Source: Gammaproteobacteria bacterium
GTDB lineage: Bacteria > Pseudomonadota > Gammaproteobacteria > Competibacterales > Competibacteraceae
NCBI GenBank assembly: GCA_020047885.1
Contig: JAIFNF010000020.1
Coordinates: forward strand, 1-6,234
Length of the DNA stretch: 6,234 nucleotides
Direction of reading: 5' to 3'
Shown one piece after another: positions 2-6,234 of the stretch (the stretch's first letter is position 1; every line of letters starts with the position of its first letter). The translations under genes and the position numbers were made by a program. The notes beneath the pieces were generated by a model. It was given only the letters and a program-made list of their open reading frames with translations. It made no database searches and was not told where the DNA came from.

Positions 2-61
2 AAGAGTCAAGATTACGCCCGCCAGTGGTGGATCACGGGCGGCGATGCCGATTTTCGTTAA
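2..61 (+). CDS. 3' end of an upstream gene, product unknown (partial)
   Basis: Frame 2 is open from the left edge and ends at TAA 59-61. Its last residues read DYARQWWITGGDADFR, which looks like a real protein C-terminus (two Trp, balanced acidic and basic residues, no rare AGA codons). Frame 1 is also open and stops at TAA 70-72, overlapping the next ATG as TAATG, but its peptide is arginine-rich with AGA codons and looks like an off-frame reading. The giant gene's own frame is open to the left edge as well, so I cannot exclude that there is no separate upstream gene. Nineteen codons are too few to name a product. If real, the gene ends ten bases before the next start, which suggests one operon and possibly translational coupling. 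Confidence 0.5.
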   Translation, partial: KSQDYARQWWITGGDADFR

Positions 62-74
62 GAATCCCATAATG
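59..74 (+). promoter_or_regulatory. Weak ribosome binding site and start of the giant gene
   Basis: TAAG at 59-62, followed by AAT, lies nine bases before the ATG at 72-74 and is a modest match to the Shine-Dalgarno sequence. The TAAG overlaps the probable stop codon of the upstream gene. The ATG at 72 is preferred because it places MSAQRPRVLFALPATTLGGAE at the N-terminus, and GT-B transferases normally begin within a few residues of their first beta strand (here RVLFALP). An in-frame ATG at 45 would add nine residues (MPIFVKNPI), has no better ribosome site and would overlap the upstream gene. No promoter is visible in the 71 bases upstream. Confidence 0.4.
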
Positions 75-1199
75 AGCGCTCAACGCCCGCGCGTACTGTT
101 TGCTTTGCCAGCAACCACTCTGGGTGGCGCAGAAATTCGTTTGCTTAACATGCTAGGCTGGTTTACGCAGTTCGAACCCGTTTTGCTTACCCATAAGGTT
201 ATCGCTGACCACTGCCCTCCCGAAATTCGGGTTCTGACATTTGAAGATCAGCCGGATTGCGTCAATCCCTATCCATTTGACTGGGGCAATGCATGTATCT
301 ATGCCCGAGCCATTGCCCAGGTGGGAAATCGGGTAGGGGCGGATCTGGTGTTTGGCTGGATGCATAATGGCACTATTTTCACGGCGCTCGCAGGAACACT
401 GTTTGGTTTGAGGAGCCGATTGATAGGTAGTGTGCTGGGACCCGCTTCCGCCCACTATCATTTTCAAGGCCTTTCTCCCACATTCTATGAACGCGCTATC
501 TTGGCCTTCGCGTTCCGCCGTGTGCATGGACTGGTCGTAAACTCCAATGGGACGCGGCAGGATCTGATCGATCATTGGCACGCTCCAGCCCGTCGCGTCC
601 AACGCATCTATAACGGGATTGATCTATCCAGAATTCGAACCATGGCTGAACAGGATCCTGTGTCAGCCGATGCGGGGATACCGGTTATTTTGGCCGCTTC
701 GCGCTTGAGTCTCGAGAAAGGGTTTGATGTGCAGTTGCGGGCATTTGCTCGGGTGCGTCAGTTCGTCAAGACCAAGTTTCTCATCCTCGGCGAGGGACCC
801 CTGCGTCCGCCGATTGAAAGTTGGATTGCGGAACTGGGTCTGGCAGACGATGTTACGCTGCTTGGTTTCCAGAGTAACCCGTTTGCCTGGATGAAACGTG
901 CATCGGTATTTCTGATGGCGTCTCGACTTGAGGGATTTCCGAATGCCTTGGTTGAAGCCATGTCGCTGGGAGTTCCCGTGGTCAGTACCGCCTGTCCGTA
1001 TGGTCCCCAAGAAATTATAGAACCCGATCTCAGTGGCTTGTTGGCACCTGTGGATGATGATGAAGCCTTGTCCCGTCACTTGTTACGGGTATTGCTGCAT
1101 CGTGAAGATGCGGCGCGGTTAGGGGAAGGCGCACGTCGGCGGGCGGAGACGTTTACCATGTCCACCATGATTGAGGCTTATGAGCGGCTTATTATCTCA
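72..1199 (+). other. Domain 1: GT4-type (GT-B fold) glycosyltransferase, residues 1-376
   Basis: The N-terminal Rossmann half starts with RVLFALPATTLGGAE, whose Gly-Gly loop (G18-G19) and acidic follow-up are typical of retaining GT4 enzymes. The C-terminal half has the donor-binding features: SRLSLEKG (R211 and K216, the usual diphosphate-contacting pair), ILGEGP at 238-243, and ASRLEGFPNALVEAMSLG at 283-300, holding a complete EX7E motif (E287 and E295). After this come GVPVV and a C-terminal helix near YERL. The 376-residue length is normal for a complete GT4 enzyme. All motifs are intact, so this domain should transfer a sugar from a nucleotide donor with retention of configuration. It is followed directly by the deacetylase domain, so its product may be the deacetylase substrate (inference). 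Confidence 0.9.
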
Positions 1200-4100
1200 A
1201 TCTGTCTGAATCCCTCGACAGTCTATGATCATCATGGATATTGGAACCGGATGAATGAGGATAAAGAAAGGATACCGCGTCAAGCAATATCAACTTTGGG
1301 GACTGGTGGGATTGCTTTGATCCTAGCGCTGCATCCGGACGATGAGGTTTTTGGCTGTGCTGGTGCCATCCTGTGCCATATCGCTGCTGGTGATCCAGTC
1401 ACAGTCATCATCCTAACCGATGGCGACGGGGGGCGGGATAATGGCGCGGAACAGACAGCCTGTGTGGCACAGCGTCGGCAGGAAAGCCGGAATGCCGCGG
1501 ACATTCTCGGCTACGGCGAACCGATGTTCTGGGATCTCTGCGACCGGGAGCTGATTATTGACGAGTTGCTCATGCAACGACTCGGCGAAACAATCATCGC
1601 CACTGGCACCCGGTGGGTCTATGCACCTTGGCCCGGCGAAAACCATCCGGATCATCGTCGGCTCGGCATGGCGGCGCTGGAGCTGCTGAATCGTCTGCCC
1701 GAACCGGTCAACTTGGTATTTTATGAAATCAGCGCTCCTCTACTGCCCAATCGCCTACTGGACATTTCCTGTTTTCTGGAGCGCAAGCGTCAGGCGATGG
1801 CCTGCTTCGTCAGTCAGTTGGCTACGCAGCCTTATGACCACCAGATTGAGGCGCTGAATCGCTACCGGGCCTACACGCTTGGAGCCGTTACCGCCGCGGA
1901 AGCCTATTGCCAGATTGAAGCCCATGAGGCCATCGCCGCCCAGCATTTTTTCACCACACTGATTGCTGGCTGGCCGCTTACTCTGGCCACCACGACTGAG
2001 TCTGATCCTGACCCCTTGGTCTCAGTCATCGTGCGCACCCTGGGGCGCCCGGAATTGCCTGAAGCTCTGGCATCCATTGCGGCACAAACCTGTGACCGCC
2101 TCGAAGTCGTAGTGGTAGACGCCAGCGGCGTCGACGCTGTACATCCCGGCAGTCAGTGCGGTCGTTTTCCCCTGTTCTTGGCAAGGGCGGGCCAACGTCT
2201 CGGTCGTAGCGCCGCCGCTAATCTGGGTCTAGATCAGGCAAGTGGCGAATTTCTGATCTTTCTGGATGATGATGACTGGTTCGAGCCAGACCATATTTCC
2301 AGTCTGGTTGACTTGTTACGAATGCAAACCACTACCGTAGCAGCCTATGCCGGAGTCCGCTGTGTCCGGCGTTCGCTGTACGGTCAGTGGGAAACAACCC
2401 GGATTTATAACGACTCCTTTGACGCTACGCGGCTGCGGGTGGAAAACTTCATTCCCATTCATGCGGTGCTGTTTCGACGAACGGTACTCAGCGGCCCAGC
2501 GCCTTGTCGTTTCGACGAACAACTGGATGTATACGAAGACTGGGATTTCTGGCTGCAATTACTGGAGCGGGGGGCTTTTCATCATCGGAACGTGGTGAGC
2601 GCCTGCTACCGAATTCACGACAGCGGCAGTCTGGTCAACGCGAGTGGGCAACAGAAGCAGGAGGCGTTCCAATCCATCGTTCGCAAGTGGCGGAGTCGCT
2701 GGAGCGACCAGCATTTGATGGACATGCTGATCCGCGCCCGGACTCCAGAGTCTACCTGTCCACAAACTATCGAACTGCGCAGCGCAACGCCCGGAGAAGA
2801 TGCCACTCAGCCGCAGCGGATCACCCATCAATTTATTGTTGAAGCGCCAGTCGTTGTCCATGTCGATGCTCCATTAGCTACCATACCCGATTCAGTGCCA
2901 TACCGAGCCGCGCTGGTCGATGTCATCATTCCCGTTTATCGCGGGCTGGCGGAAACCCGCGCCTGTTTGACCAGTATCCTGCATTACCGGCAGAGCGTCC
3001 CACATGAAATTATCGTCATTGATGATGCCAGTTCTGAACCAGCGTTGACCGACTATCTCAGCGAATTGGCGACGGCTGGACATATTACCCTGCTGCACAA
3101 TGAACAAAATCTGGGGTTCGTGCAAACCGTTAATCGTGGCATGGCGGTTCATCAAGAACGCGATGTCGTGCTGTTGAACAGCGATACCGAGGTCGCCGGC
3201 GACTGGCTGGATCGCCTGACTCAGTGTGCCTACGGCGATCCGCGAACCGGAACCGCGACCCCTTTTTCCAATAACGCCACCATTTGCAGCTACCCCCGAA
3301 CCTGCGCCAACAATGATTTGCCGGACGGTTATACGGTGGCGACTCTGGATGCGCTGTTTCGGCGGGTGAATGTCGGACGGTCGATATTTATTCCGACCGC
3401 GGTGGGGTTTTGCATGTATATCCGTCGTGATTGCCTCCGCGAGACCGGCTTCTTTGATGCTGTCCATTTTGGCCGGGGGTATGGCGAAGAAAACGATTTC
3501 TGTATGCGTGCAACAACTCTCGGCTGGCACCATCTGCTGTGTGGCGATGTGTTTATTTATCACCGGGGCGGTGCCAGTTTTGGCGACCAGCACGATCTTT
3601 TGGAGCAACAGGGAATCGCGACTATCTGTCGATTACATCCCGGTTATGAAACCGCCATCCAAGCCCATATCGCCGCTGATGCAGCGAAACCGTTGCGCCA
3701 GGCAGTAGACGCCGCCCGCCTGCTTGATAGCAATCTGCCGGTTGTATTGTTTGTCAACCATAACCTTGGCGGCGGCACTCTCAAGCATGTGCGGGAACTG
3801 GCCGCGTTGTTGAGTGGGCGGATGCAAACCCTGTTGCTCTGCCCGATGGCTGACCATATCCATAGTTTAAGCTGGTTCCGGGATGGGGAAAGCTTGGAGT
3901 TGCGTTTTGCATTGCCAACTGATTATGGCCTGCTGTGTGATGTGTTGCGCGCCTTGAGCGTGAGCCGAATTCATTTTCATCATCTGCTGGACGTGGACGC
4001 CAGTATCTGGCAATTGCCGCAGGATTTAGGATTACCGTATGACTATACCCTGCATGACTATTACCCGGTCTGCCCACGCATCAATTTGTTTAATGCATTA

Positions 4101-6234
4101 GGCCGCTATTGTGGTGAACCCGATGAAGTTGGATGCAACCACTGCTTGCAGACGACCGAACCGGTGATCAAGGATACAACCATTCAGGATTGGCGAACTC
4201 GCCATGTCCAATTGCTGAACGCTGCTGACCGGGTGTTAACGCCAACCTGCGATGTGAAACAGCGAATGTTACGTTATCTGCCTGTAGCTCATCTGATGGT
4301 TGCCCCACATCCCGAAGCTACGTTACTCGATCAGCCGCCGACGCCGACGCCACTGTCTGCGAATGAACCCTTACGAATTGTAGTGTTAGGGGCACTCAGT
4401 CAAGCCAAGGGTGCGGATCTGTTGGAAGCCTGTGCGATTGACGCCCAACGACGTAACTTGCCACTGGCTTTTCACTTGTTGGGCTACGCGCACCGTAACT
4501 TGGCGATCGGACCGGACAGCCGGCTACAGATCTATGGAGCCTACAATGACGAAGATCTGCCGGAACGGTTGGCAGCGCTTAACTCTCATCTCGCCTGGTT
4601 CCCAGCGCAGTGGCCGGAAACCTACTGTTATGCGCTGAGCGCCTGTCTGCGAGCCGGGTTACCGATTGTCGCCACTGATCTGGGTGCCTTCGCGGAACGA
4701 CTGGCTAACCGCTCCTGGAGTTGGATCAGGCCTTGGCAAACAAGTCCGGCAGCGTGGAGTGATTTCTTCATGGTGCTGCGAGAGCAGTATTTTGCCCGCG
4801 GCATTTCGCCCCCGGTATGGTCTGGTGAGACGCTAACCGCGGAATTTGACTACCTCCGTGATTATCTGCTGTCGTTAGCTGACAAGCCCATCGAACCTGC
4901 TTATATTCCCGATAATCTGACGACCCTGTTAGCGGCTTGTGTTGCTGAGACTCCGCCAGACAGGCAAGACTATATTATTTGGTTACAACGCCATCGTTGG
5001 GATGAGCGAGCTTGCCGCCATCTATTAGAATTGACCCAGCGCCGGACGACACTGCCGATAATCCACCTGTTCATCGTGTTGCCTGCATCGCAGAGCGCAC
5101 TGCTAGGTCCGACCCTGATTTCACTGGCCGAGCAAACCCTGTCGGCGTGGCGCTTAACAGTGATAGCCGACTTCGCCTGCCCAGCGCCGGAATTTGCGCA
5201 GATGGACGAGTTGAACTGGGTTCATATCAGCGCCTGGGGGGAATTAAGCGATGCCCTGGCCGATCACGTGCGGCAATCGCCAGCGGAATGGTTCTGGTCG
5301 GGTCATGCGGGTATTCAGTTGGAACCGGTTTTCATCAATCTGGCGGTGGAATTGATCAGCCGCCATCCTGAATGGCGCTTGGTTTATACCGATGAAGATG
5401 TTGTCAGCTCAGGACTGGATCAGCAATCCTGGAGCCATCCTCTGTTTAAACCGGACGCTAATCTGGATTTATTGCGTTCCAGTGGCTATGTCGGTCATGC
5501 CGTTCTGATCCATCGGGAATTGTGGGCAAGTCTGCCCGTTGCTGAATTACGCCCTGGCCTGTTGCTGAATTACGCTGTGGCTTTACGCTGTTTCGAGCAG
5601 TTCGGCGAAGCGGCGGTCGGCCACATTGATGAGATGGTTTTTCACCAGCCTGAAGCAACGCCCGTCAACTGGCCGGTGTTTGGCCGGGACGCCCGGCCGC
5701 TGTTAAGCGGACATTTACAGCGCCAAAACCTCGCGGCGACGATCCAGGCTGGGCCACTACTGGGAACTTTCCAGGTGAATTACGGGGTGACGCGTACCCC
5801 GCTGGTTTCGATCATCATTCCTACGCGTAATCGCCTGGATTTGATCCAGCCCTGTCTGGATAGTCTCCTGGCGAAGACCCGCTATCCGCATTTCGAAGTG
5901 CTGATTGTCGATCATCGCAGCGATGAACCGGACGTGTTGGATTACTTGCAACAGAAAGTCCGGCAGGATGTCCGGGTCCGGGTCATCCCCTATTCAAACG
6001 AGTATAACTATTCGGCAATCAACAACCATGCCGCCCGACAGGCGCAGGGCGAATTCTTGCTGCTATTGAATAATGATACCGTCATTCTGCACTACGACTG
6101 GTTGGAGACGCTGGTGGCGCTGGGTTTACGTCCGGACGTCGGGGCGGTCGGATGTCGGCTGATTTACCCCAATCACACTTTGCAACATGCCGGGGTCATT
6201 GTCGGGATGGGTGGGGTAGCAGACCATATTGGCG
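72..6234 (+). CDS. Giant multi-domain glycosyltransferase / PIG-L deacetylase (3' partial)
   Basis: This single uninterrupted frame codes for 2,054 residues and leaves the window without a stop. Domains in order: GT4-type GT-B transferase (1-376), PIG-L/LmbE zinc deacetylase (413-640), GT2 (648-880), GT2 (947-1195), second GT-B transferase (1222-1560), degenerate GT2 (1661-1885), and GT2 (1908 to beyond the edge). Each is assigned from motifs described in the domain entries. Single-domain members of these families are usually about 230-400 residues, so this is a fusion of at least seven modules. No signal peptide or transmembrane helix is apparent, so a cytoplasmic enzyme is expected, as for transferases using nucleotide sugars. 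The inferred role is building a glycan with a de-N-acetylated amino sugar for a polysaccharide, lipid carrier or glycoprotein; donor and acceptor are unknown. Codon use looks the same throughout, arguing against a recent patchwork. The fusion and family calls are firm; the pathway is inference. Confidence 0.95.
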   Translation, partial: MSAQRPRVLFALPATTLGGAEIRLLNMLGWFTQFEPVLLTHKVIADHCPPEIRVLTFEDQPDCVNPYPFDWGNACIYARAIAQVGNRVGADLVFGWMHNGTIFTALAGTLFGLRSRLIGSVLGPASAHYHFQGLSPTFYERAILAFAFRRVHGLVVNSNGTRQDLIDHWHAPARRVQRIYNGIDLSRIRTMAEQDPVSADAGIPVILAASRLSLEKGFDVQLRAFARVRQFVKTKFLILGEGPLRPPIESWIAELGLADDVTLLGFQSNPFAWMKRASVFLMASRLEGFPNALVEAMSLGVPVVSTACPYGPQEIIEPDLSGLLAPVDDDEALSRHLLRVLLHREDAARLGEGARRRAETFTMSTMIEAYERLIISICLNPSTVYDHHGYWNRMNEDKERIPRQAISTLGTGGIALILALHPDDEVFGCAGAILCHIAAGDPVTVIILTDGDGGRDNGAEQTACVAQRRQESRNAADILGYGEPMFWDLCDRELIIDELLMQRLGETIIATGTRWVYAPWPGENHPDHRRLGMAALELLNRLPEPVNLVFYEISAPLLPNRLLDISCFLERKRQAMACFVSQLATQPYDHQIEALNRYRAYTLGAVTAAEAYCQIEAHEAIAAQHFFTTLIAGWPLTLATTTESDPDPLVSVIVRTLGRPELPEALASIAAQTCDRLEVVVVDASGVDAVHPGSQCGRFPLFLARAGQRLGRSAAANLGLDQASGEFLIFLDDDDWFEPDHISSLVDLLRMQTTTVAAYAGVRCVRRSLYGQWETTRIYNDSFDATRLRVENFIPIHAVLFRRTVLSGPAPCRFDEQLDVYEDWDFWLQLLERGAFHHRNVVSACYRIHDSGSLVNASGQQKQEAFQSIVRKWRSRWSDQHLMDMLIRARTPESTCPQTIELRSATPGEDATQPQRITHQFIVEAPVVVHVDAPLATIPDSVPYRAALVDVIIPVYRGLAETRACLTSILHYRQSVPHEIIVIDDASSEPALTDYLSELATAGHITLLHNEQNLGFVQTVNRGMAVHQERDVVLLNSDTEVAGDWLDRLTQCAYGDPRTGTATPFSNNATICSYPRTCANNDLPDGYTVATLDALFRRVNVGRSIFIPTAVGFCMYIRRDCLRETGFFDAVHFGRGYGEENDFCMRATTLGWHHLLCGDVFIYHRGGASFGDQHDLLEQQGIATICRLHPGYETAIQAHIAADAAKPLRQAVDAARLLDSNLPVVLFVNHNLGGGTLKHVRELAALLSGRMQTLLLCPMADHIHSLSWFRDGESLELRFALPTDYGLLCDVLRALSVSRIHFHHLLDVDASIWQLPQDLGLPYDYTLHDYYPVCPRINLFNALGRYCGEPDEVGCNHCLQTTEPVIKDTTIQDWRTRHVQLLNAADRVLTPTCDVKQRMLRYLPVAHLMVAPHPEATLLDQPPTPTPLSANEPLRIVVLGALSQAKGADLLEACAIDAQRRNLPLAFHLLGYAHRNLAIGPDSRLQIYGAYNDEDLPERLAALNSHLAWFPAQWPETYCYALSACLRAGLPIVATDLGAFAERLANRSWSWIRPWQTSPAAWSDFFMVLREQYFARGISPPVWSGETLTAEFDYLRDYLLSLADKPIEPAYIPDNLTTLLAACVAETPPDRQDYIIWLQRHRWDERACRHLLELTQRRTTLPIIHLFIVLPASQSALLGPTLISLAEQTLSAWRLTVIADFACPAPEFAQMDELNWVHISAWGELSDALADHVRQSPAEWFWSGHAGIQLEPVFINLAVELISRHPEWRLVYTDEDVVSSGLDQQSWSHPLFKPDANLDLLRSSGYVGHAVLIHRELWASLPVAELRPGLLLNYAVALRCFEQFGEAAVGHIDEMVFHQPEATPVNWPVFGRDARPLLSGHLQRQNLAATIQAGPLLGTFQVNYGVTRTPLVSIIIPTRNRLDLIQPCLDSLLAKTRYPHFEVLIVDHRSDEPDVLDYLQQKVRQDVRVRVIPYSNEYNYSAINNHAARQAQGEFLLLLNNDTVILHYDWLETLVALGLRPDVGAVGCRLIYPNHTLQHAGVIVGMGGVADHIG
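1200..1307 (+). other. Linker between GT4 and PIG-L domains, residues 377-412
   Basis: This short hydrophilic stretch joins the last helix of the GT4 domain to the first strand of the deacetylase. It includes YDHHGYWNRMNEDKERIPRQ and belongs to no domain I recognise. It has more A and T than its surroundings and uses AGG and ATA codons. An in-frame ATG at 1251-1253, with GGA at 1243-1245 five bases before it, would be a plausible start for a stand-alone deacetylase-onward product. There is no stop between the modules, so the two domains are physically fused in the full-length product. Confidence 0.6.
1308..1991 (+). other. Domain 2: PIG-L/LmbE-family zinc N-deacetylase, residues 413-640
   Basis: The strand GIALILALHPDDE ends in the family's signature HPDDE: H421, D423, D424. 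TDGDGG at 449-454, RRQESRNAA at 468-476 and HPDH at 525-528 follow at family-typical spacing. By analogy with MshB, H421, D424 and H528 should bind zinc, D423 should act as general base, and H525 should support the transition state. The family removes N-acetyl (or related acyl) groups from sugars such as GlcNAc-inositol, GlcNAc-malate, GlcNAc-phosphatidylinositol and antibiotic precursors. All expected residues are present, so activity is likely. The neighbouring transferase domains suggest a substrate made or extended on the same polypeptide. The exact sugar is unknown. Confidence 0.9.
2013..2711 (+). other. Domain 3: GT2 (GT-A fold) glycosyltransferase, residues 648-880
   Basis: The domain opens with PLVSVIVRTLGRPELPEAL, then ASIAAQT and VVVVDASG (D683, nucleotide-binding region). 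RLGRSAAANLGLDQASGEF leads to IFLDDDDWFEP, whose aspartates D732-D735 form the metal-binding DXD-type motif. YEDWDFWL at 821-828 corresponds to the family's ED motif with the presumed catalytic base, and CYRIHDSGS near 845-853 is the usual C-terminal His segment. At about 230 residues it is a complete inverting GT2 domain. Fusion of a PIG-L domain to a following GT2 of this type is, from memory, also seen in shorter proteins. The linker 881-946 that follows is Pro/Thr/Glu-rich with no recognised fold. Confidence 0.9.
2910..3656 (+). other. Domain 4: GT2 (rhamnosyltransferase-like) domain, residues 947-1195
   Basis: It begins VDVIIPVYRGLAETRACL, followed by IIVIDDASSEPAL (D984-D985), NLGFVQTVNRGM and VVLLNSDTEVAGDWLDRL. 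The NSDTE at 1036-1040 is the metal-binding DXD equivalent. FIPTAVGFCMYIRRDCL is the typical acceptor-side strand. FGRGYGEENDFCMRATTLGW holds the ED motif (E1139-D1142, with the acidic cluster intact), and YHRGGASFG at 1163-1171 carries H1164. This pattern is common to GT2 enzymes of O-antigen and flagellin glycan synthesis, including rhamnosyltransferases. All key positions are conserved, so it is expected to be active. The sugar is not determined by these motifs. Confidence 0.9.
3735..4751 (+). other. Domain 5: GT-B glycosyltransferase with HDYYPVCPR/Cys region, residues 1222-1560
   Basis: The N-terminal half reads LPVVLFVNHNLGGGTLKHV, with a Gly-rich donor/acceptor loop at G1233-G1235. SRIHFHHLL and LHDYYPVCPRINLF follow. 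Cysteines at 1334, 1347, 1355 and 1358 cluster around YCGEPDEVGCNHC. A short PPTPTP linker (1422-1427) joins the halves. The second half starts RIVVLGALSQAKGADLL (K1446-G1447, diphosphate-binding position). It continues to AWFPAQWPETYCYALSACL, where the first Glu of EX7E is E1516 but the second position is A1524, then GLPIVATDLGAFAERL. From memory, related domains occur in large polysaccharide-synthesis proteins with this same ending, so the Ala may be usual for the subfamily. Probably a transferase, less certainly active than domain 1. Residues 1561-1660 after it are helical-looking spacer with no recognised domain. Confidence 0.8.
5538..5583 (+). repeat. 23-bp imperfect tandem repeat within the coding region
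   Basis: The unit 5538-5560 is followed immediately by 5561-5583. The first 15 bases of each (GTTGCTGAATTACGC) are identical, and 20 of 23 positions match overall. Because 23 is not a multiple of three, the copies are read in different frames: VAELR in the first, LLNYA in the second. The repeat lies over residues about 1823-1838, exactly where domain 6 has lost its QDYD motif. Confidence 0.8.
5682..5698 (+). repeat. Small GC-rich inverted repeat (7-bp stem, 3-base loop)
   Basis: GGCCGGG at 5682-5688 and CCCGGCC at 5692-5698 can pair around the loop ACG. No T-run follows and the site is in the middle of the gene, so it is not a terminator. It encodes part of FGRDARPLL in the C-terminal part of domain 6 and is probably incidental. 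Confidence 0.5.
5793..6234 (+). other. Domain 7: GT2 glycosyltransferase, truncated by window end, from residue 1908
   Basis: The sequence TPLVSIIIPTRNRLDLIQPC is a clear GT2 start. VLIVDHRSDEPDVLDYL (D1947), NYSAINNHAARQAQGEF and LLLNNDTVILHYDWLETL follow; NNDT at 2000-2003 is the metal-binding motif. Then come VGAVGCRLIYPNHTLQHAGV and GMGGVADHIG at the edge. This closely follows the second domain of tandem-GT2 proteins, in which about 100-130 further residues including the ED motif would be expected. Everything seen so far is intact, so this is probably the active partner of the degenerate domain 6. The C-terminus of the protein and any further domains lie outside the window. Confidence 0.9.

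Follow-up and report, generated by a model that had tools for sequence, protein, structure and literature searches.

A single open frame across the window

Does one polypeptide carry seven steps of glycan assembly, and does the order of its modules reflect the order of its reactions? This question is raised by a stretch of 6,234 nt from a Competibacteraceae genome, the whole of which was analyzed and is here called the window. Its translation contains a single plus-strand frame without a stop codon from nt 3 to 6233, just as a sequence-only reading of the same DNA had described, and simple arithmetic puts the probability of 2,077 random codons without a stop at ~1e-43. The frame holds 2,063 codons when counted from the ATG at position 45 and 2,054 when counted from the ATG at position 72. 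Its modules are, in order, a GT4, a PIG-L, two GT2s, a weakly matched GT-B, a module 6, and a GT2 cut by the window end; a Pfam search of the whole frame returned N-terminal GT4 models, a PIG-L match at 426-546, and three stretches of GT2. GC content of the seven modules is 0.535-0.577, so that no recent foreign piece is apparent in the window. The features are as follows.

2..61, plus strand (other frame): last 19 codons and stop of the upstream GNAT acetyltransferase gene; matches gene ends in L129 and L130 (PF13527)
72..1211, plus strand: module 1, GT4 glycosyltransferase, a stand-alone gene in relatives; from Pfam and ten homologs
1212..1250, plus strand: 13-codon in-frame bridge, a gene end and gene start in relatives; from comparison with homologs
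1251..1979, plus strand: module 2, PIG-L/LmbE deacetylase; Pfam 74 bits, ATG 1251 aligns with homolog starts
1980..2819, plus strand: module 3, GT2; 67 bits to PF00535
2892..3758, plus strand: module 4, GT2; 55 bits to PF00535
3759..4841, plus strand: module 5, weakly matched GT-B, EX7E without the second Glu; below Pfam cut-offs, motif
4842..4979, plus strand: module 5 tail and linker, the joint that carries inserts in relatives; from comparison of relatives
4980..5771, plus strand: module 6, conserved domain without Pfam match and without DXD; from profile searches and motif inspection
5772..6233, plus strand: module 7, GT2, cut by the window end; 73 bits to PF00535

The GT4 gene and its junction with the PIG-L module

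Nucleotides 2-61 encode, in another frame, KSQDYARQWWITGGDADFR followed by a stop, which are the last 19 residues of an upstream gene. The genes that precede the GT4 ortholog in two Competibacteraceae loci, L129 and L130, have almost identical ends and encode GNAT acetyltransferases (PF13527). Gene order in L130 is Wzm (PF01061), Wzt (PF00005), a GT4-PIG-L fusion, GNAT, and GT4; in L129 it is a GT4-PIG-L fusion, GNAT, GT4, a short spacer, and a frame that opens with a module-3-type GT2, reaches the contig end, and has a repetitive charged tail. Together, the GNAT gene end and the order in these two loci place the start of the GT4 gene at ATG 72, which agrees with the start proposed from the sequence alone, and the window is predicted to sit, most likely, in the same kind of operon.

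The sequence-only reading had made GT4 the first module of a shared chain, and this needs correcting for the relatives: listed homologs are split at the GT4/PIG-L junction. The ten nearest listed homologs of module 1 (68-80% identity, 363-389 aa) end at, or at most about 15 residues past, the position of window residue 389, and PIG-L homologs start at or near a Met aligned with window residue 403. A PIG-L match above 80 bits was found in 44 of 355 proteins and begins within the first 60 residues in every one of the 44. GT4 and PIG-L Pfam domains did not occur together in any of the best 120 listed matches to GT4 plus PIG-L, which span only 352-1,120 aa. Since the listed relatives keep the two apart, the window links genes that are normally separate, by way of 13 in-frame codons (nt 1212-1250) that contain no stop.

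This join may be a sequence or assembly error, with two genes present in the organism; such an error would be confined to the first junction and does not conflict with the explanation that we favor below. The bridge spans from the point where the GT4 homologs terminate to the start codon of the PIG-L homologs, 14 of the 18 bases up to and including the ATG are identical to L127 (counted by hand), and the GT4 ortholog of L129 ends in a stop, with its GT2 frame following after a short spacer, as the ortholog of L130 is likewise closed by a stop. The frame is nevertheless clean on either side of the bridge, with no frameshift signature, and a natural loss of the stop would look the same. We regard an error here as a serious possibility, somewhat short of probable.

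That a GT4-PIG-L fusion can exist is shown by L129 and L130, each of which has such a frame two genes upstream of its GT4 ortholog (L129:199-2346, 716 aa; L130:3665-5911, 749 aa). Along with the openness of the window frame through all of its modules, these fusions speak for the alternative of a true seven-module assembly line, in which all modules act in chain order with GT4 first. They are, however, only about 28-34% identical to the window modules, and the assembly line is further opposed by the stand-alone GT4 of the ten nearest listed homologs and by the N-terminal position of PIG-L in 44 of 44 listed proteins. The remaining modules bear on it as well.

Modules with and without glycosyltransferase signatures

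Module 2 matches PIG-L/LmbE (PF02585) at 74 bits against a cut-off of 28.2. Motifs read in the translation are HPDDE and HPDH in module 2, DDDD and ED in module 3, NSDTE and EEND in module 4, and NNDT in module 7, all of which we take to be functional motifs of their modules. The GT2 modules 3, 4, and 7 each score above the Pfam cut-off, and the chain therefore bears two or more GT modules. Module 4 or 5 was found in all 80 loci fetched by similarity. Module 5 searched alone against three GT-B models scored 22.9, 22.7, and 20.8 bits, where the cut-offs are 26.4, 28.5, and 27 (best E 7e-5), and its two halves match GT-B models in the right order, though below the cut-offs. Its motif, PETYCYALSA, has Ala in place of the second Glu of EX7E, and the same Ala occurs in 86 of 102 proteins fitting a search pattern that presupposes part of the motif.

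Module 6 searched alone matched no Pfam family at E 1, and six of its relatives matched no GT-type Pfam family at E 10. Comparison with modules 3, 4, and 7 by hhalign gave a probability of 3%, and no PDB match to module 6 was found under E 0.5. There is no DXD; WFWSGHAGIQLEP stands at the proposed place, in a register that rests on an uncertain GT2 likeness. An iterated search of 355 proteins did tie module 6 to GT2 domains by round 2, a result open to profile drift. Given the negative profile, hhalign, and PDB tests and the missing DXD, the assignment of module 6 as a GT2 is not borne out. Identity of the window to eight relatives is 70-81% in module 6, 65-80% in module 5, and 77-86% in module 7.

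Pfam thus upheld the original assignments of modules 1, 2, 3, 4, and 7, while module 5 as a GT-B was recovered only below cut-offs and module 6 as GT2-like was not upheld. Judging from their motifs and profiles, modules 5 and 6 may lack glycosyltransferase activity. With no GT profile or DXD in module 6 and no second Glu in module 5, seven catalytic sugar-transfer steps are unlikely, and the absence of both marks from module 6 counts against the assembly line.

Relatives share the chain and differ in module order

The protein P0001 (3,057 aa) carries modules 2, 3, 4, 5, 6, and 7 in the order of the window, at identities of 70, 75, 79, 74, 78, and 80%, respectively; past the window end it continues with the remainder of the module 7 GT2 and then a module 8 with GT-B relatives. 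P0003 is collinear with the window from within module 4 onward, and six proteins of 1,816-1,830 aa, two of them named Polaromonas, match modules 2-3-4-5 and module 8, without modules 6-7. Both P0001 and P0002, a further relative, are metagenome proteins. On this sequence evidence, the chain from PIG-L to the last GT2 is real, with its order kept in P0001. The proposed tethering on one chain accordingly survives for modules 2-7, through P0001 and the six proteins that keep 2-3-4-5, and does not extend to GT4 in the listed relatives. Homologs are not consistently split at the junctions of modules 2-7 (L002 is split at 5/6 by an insert), and the listed ones are split between GT4 and PIG-L.

Among the 124 listed proteins of at least 1,600 aa, 71 have modules 6-7-8 side by side, and the 124 make up 55 distinct strings of reference modules, counts that depend on the reference modules chosen and that cover listed proteins selected by similarity (the best 120 of 815, 175, and 293 matches). 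P0004 has module 6 placed between modules 3 and 4, and the N-terminal side before module 4 is PIG-L-GT2 in the window and P0001 or methyltransferase in P0002 and L002. The suggestion that domain order matches reaction order did not withstand this comparison; module order varies among relatives, which argues against it and against the seven-module assembly line alike. We consider that assembly line very improbable.

The nearest genome matches of the window are Candidatus Competibacteraceae and Contendobacter, and an uncultured member of this group is its most likely source. With at most 10 candidates scored per genome, a family search gave matches at 1e-40 or better in 30 of 39 genomes and GT4 orthologs at 70% identity or more in 2 of 39. 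Plasmid searches returned no DNA match to the window, and the PIG-L start gave 9 records, none of which reached 60% identity. A PDB sequence search gave 64 matches, the placeable ones among the 60 listed being GT4-type (including GlgA fusion constructs), GT2, and PIG-L relatives. In Chromatium okenii, a 2,987-aa open frame (L071:9206-18166) has methyltransferase, GT2, and GT-B matches and much unmatched sequence.

A variable joint between modules 5 and 6

Across the window and its relatives, the transition from module 5 to module 6 takes five forms. The window has a short linker ending IIWLQRHRW and no insert; P0001 and P0003 have RgpF-HAD plus a third stretch; P0002 and L001 have a GT2-GT4 pair; and P0009 has a WbsX domain (PF14307, named GH99-like). 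In the fifth form, found in L002 (Contendobacter odensis), the tail of module 5 is interrupted by an AT-rich insert of ~0.8 kb that contains a methyltransferase frame (L002:12019-12824). The seven bases ATTCGAC stand at both of its edges, and a repeat search made no terminal inverted repeat evident. After the insert the frame runs into module 6, giving a methyltransferase-6-7-8 protein, P0015, which was found on two contigs. This insert is a possible mobile cassette. GC content is 0.387 and 0.355 in the L001 insert and 0.408 in the L002 insert, whereas the modules on either side have 0.54-0.63 and 0.55-0.61.

Over the 906 aa that start with module 6, the identity between P0009 and P0015 is 99.1%. 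Before the joint, P0009 is 65% identical over 117 aa to module 5 in the preceding gene of L002, a comparison confined to 117-123 residues because P0009 starts inside module 5, and the inserts of the two proteins at the joint are unrelated in kind. Near-identity after the joint, 65% before it, and different inserts between place a breakpoint at the joint.

A bolder reading builds on this joint: the giants would be plug-in assembly enzymes with constant front and back blocks, foreign cassettes swapped through a recombination socket in the linker, and module 6 for docking. The front block would be modules 4-5 and the back block modules 6-7-8, with the socket in the linker between them and module 6 serving as a docking domain beside it. 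RgpF-HAD, GT2-GT4, WbsX, and methyltransferase cassettes would be gained, lost, and swapped there, mostly in frame, and the surface glycan would change while the rest of the cluster stays untouched. We hold this version in full to be possible, though rather doubtful.

Exporters, coiled coils, and autotransporters at related loci

Wzm and Wzt are both present in 53 of the 80 loci fetched by similarity, and in 45 of the 55 of those that are at least 18 kb long. They accompany a GT4 ortholog or a PIG-L giant in all five Competibacteraceae loci L130-L134; the order in L131-L134 is Wzm, GT4, Wzt, and then a PIG-L-GT2 giant of 1,185-1,317 aa. In the stretches of the closest relatives, neither was found in L002, L003, L070, and L138 (18-26 kb) or in the short stretches L001 and L127-L129. 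Each of L131-L134 also has an upstream frame of roughly 600 aa that matches BNR weakly, and L131, L132, and L134 (three tested) have another of roughly 420 aa without a Pfam match, again upstream.

By a home-made heptad score, a coiled-coil-like stretch is present in 92 of 108 relatives of 1,100-1,400 aa versus 5 of 60 shuffles drawn from four proteins, and it lies at most 250 residues before module 4 in all 89 relatives with module 4 placed. An N-terminal methyltransferase occurs in 88 of the 108 and also in P0002. The same score detected no coiled-coil stretch in the window, P0001, P0002, or P0003, and Pfam detected no terminating enzyme (such as a methyltransferase-kinase) in the visible part of the window chain.

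In two genomes the neighborhood points elsewhere. Closely similar autotransporter frames of 858-860 aa (PF03797) adjoin giant GT genes in L002 (L002:6711-9284) and L128/L153 (L128:3743-6322), which raises the alternative that the enzyme glycosylates a neighboring autotransporter adhesin rather than building an exported polysaccharide. PF03797 matches occur in 14 of 29 genomes, yet GT-module matches were found in only 2 of 17 stretches around autotransporter matches (two further matches lie outside this count), namely L002 and L128/L153, and these two have the autotransporter on opposite sides, upstream of the giant GT genes in one genome and downstream in the other. A chemotaxis gene common to both loci was looked for and not found. 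Most other relatives are accompanied by ABC exporters instead, and we judge the glycosylation of an adhesin to be highly unlikely.

Comparison with known systems

Multi-module polymerases of ABC-transporter pathways include WbbB (O12), ORF6 (O7), and WbdA/WbdD (O3/E. coli O9), and in the Klebsiella O antigens terminator, coiled-coil ruler, and polymerase modules are variably spread over proteins (PMC11231755). The window and its relatives resemble this class in having several GT modules on one chain or complex, and 53 of the 80 related loci share the genes for ABC export; some members of the class add a terminating enzyme, and module distribution differs between serotypes there (PMC11231755). 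Many window relatives also follow the Klebsiella plan in having a methyltransferase and a coiled-coil-like stretch before modules 4-5 (PMC11231755). Unlike the class as described in the passages of that paper, the window includes a PIG-L deacetylase as well as a larger number of modules, one close relative is as long as 3,057 aa, and the part seen has neither coiled coil nor terminator. Those same passages make no mention of exchange at one internal linker (PMC11231755). By inference from this analogy, the window enzyme would work like the Klebsiella polymerase class, minus two of its marks in the part seen.

Other comparisons are more distant. A111/114R of Chlorovirus PBCV-1, with three putative GT domains of about 300 aa each, is likewise one chain assigned several sugars of one glycan; it differs in being viral, in having three domains, and in acting on an N-glycan core, and its abstract names neither PIG-L nor an export system (PMC7826918). 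TagF-like and related multidomain capsule polymerases similarly unite GT and other transferase activities in one surface-polymer enzyme and differ in that their polymers contain phosphate, as far as the portions consulted describe them (PMC8262930, PMC5974469). Cps3D (8qoy), the one PDB match of the capsule-polymerase type, covers only the GT4 module. The BAHT/TibC heptosyltransferases, as partly described, are GTs acting on an autotransporter (PMC4358343), and two window relatives have an autotransporter frame beside GT genes. A search of the open literature with limited terms showed, among the papers listed, no giant GT proteins of this kind and no module exchange at an internal linker.

A probable mosaic gene for a surface glycan

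We think it probable that the window belongs to a giant, mosaic, multi-module glycan-assembly gene for an ABC-exported surface glycan, diversified by linker recombination and preceded by a GT4 gene. The open frame and its domains, the collinear P0001 and P0003, the six proteins with modules 2-3-4-5, the GT4 gene boundary, the exporter genes at related loci, the coiled-coil-like stretches of relatives, and the variable joint with its AT-rich inserts speak for this reading. Speaking against it are the exporters not found in the stretches from the closest relatives, the coiled coil not detected in the window and P0001-P0003, and the doubtful activity of modules 5 and 6. The window would then hold, in operon order, the end of the GNAT gene, the GT4 gene, whose frame here continues into the next gene, and 1,661 codons from the beginning of the giant gene itself. 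That gene would encode PIG-L, GT2, GT2, GT-B, module 6, GT2, and, judging by homologs, a last module of GT-B type. In the cytoplasm, these modules would jointly process a lipid-linked surface glycan, with PIG-L taking off an acetyl group, the GT2 modules 3, 4, and 7 and perhaps module 5 adding sugars, and module 6 having a structural or acceptor-binding part; for every member of the group, such catalytic roles are predicted. The product would exit by the Wzm/Wzt ABC transporter. Recombination would gain, lose, or replace modules at the linkers, above all at the module 5/6 linker, and glycan diversity would follow.

A multi-module glycan-assembly enzyme is a known kind, and the variable joint is the part most worth following. 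Diversity of bacterial surface glycans is usually put down to the exchange of whole cluster genes. Here, the site of exchange seems to be a defined linker inside a single gene, and two relatives are 99% identical on one side of it. If this is true, natural variants mark the points at which catalytic modules can be fused into a functional chain, which would help in the construction of glycan polymerases. A further caution is that the order of domains in such giants should not be taken for the order of reactions. Wastewater granules, in which extracellular glycans matter, are a typical habitat of Competibacteraceae. Since the enzymes at one joint of the protein differ between close relatives, exchanging parts within one gene may be how these bacteria alter their surface sugars.
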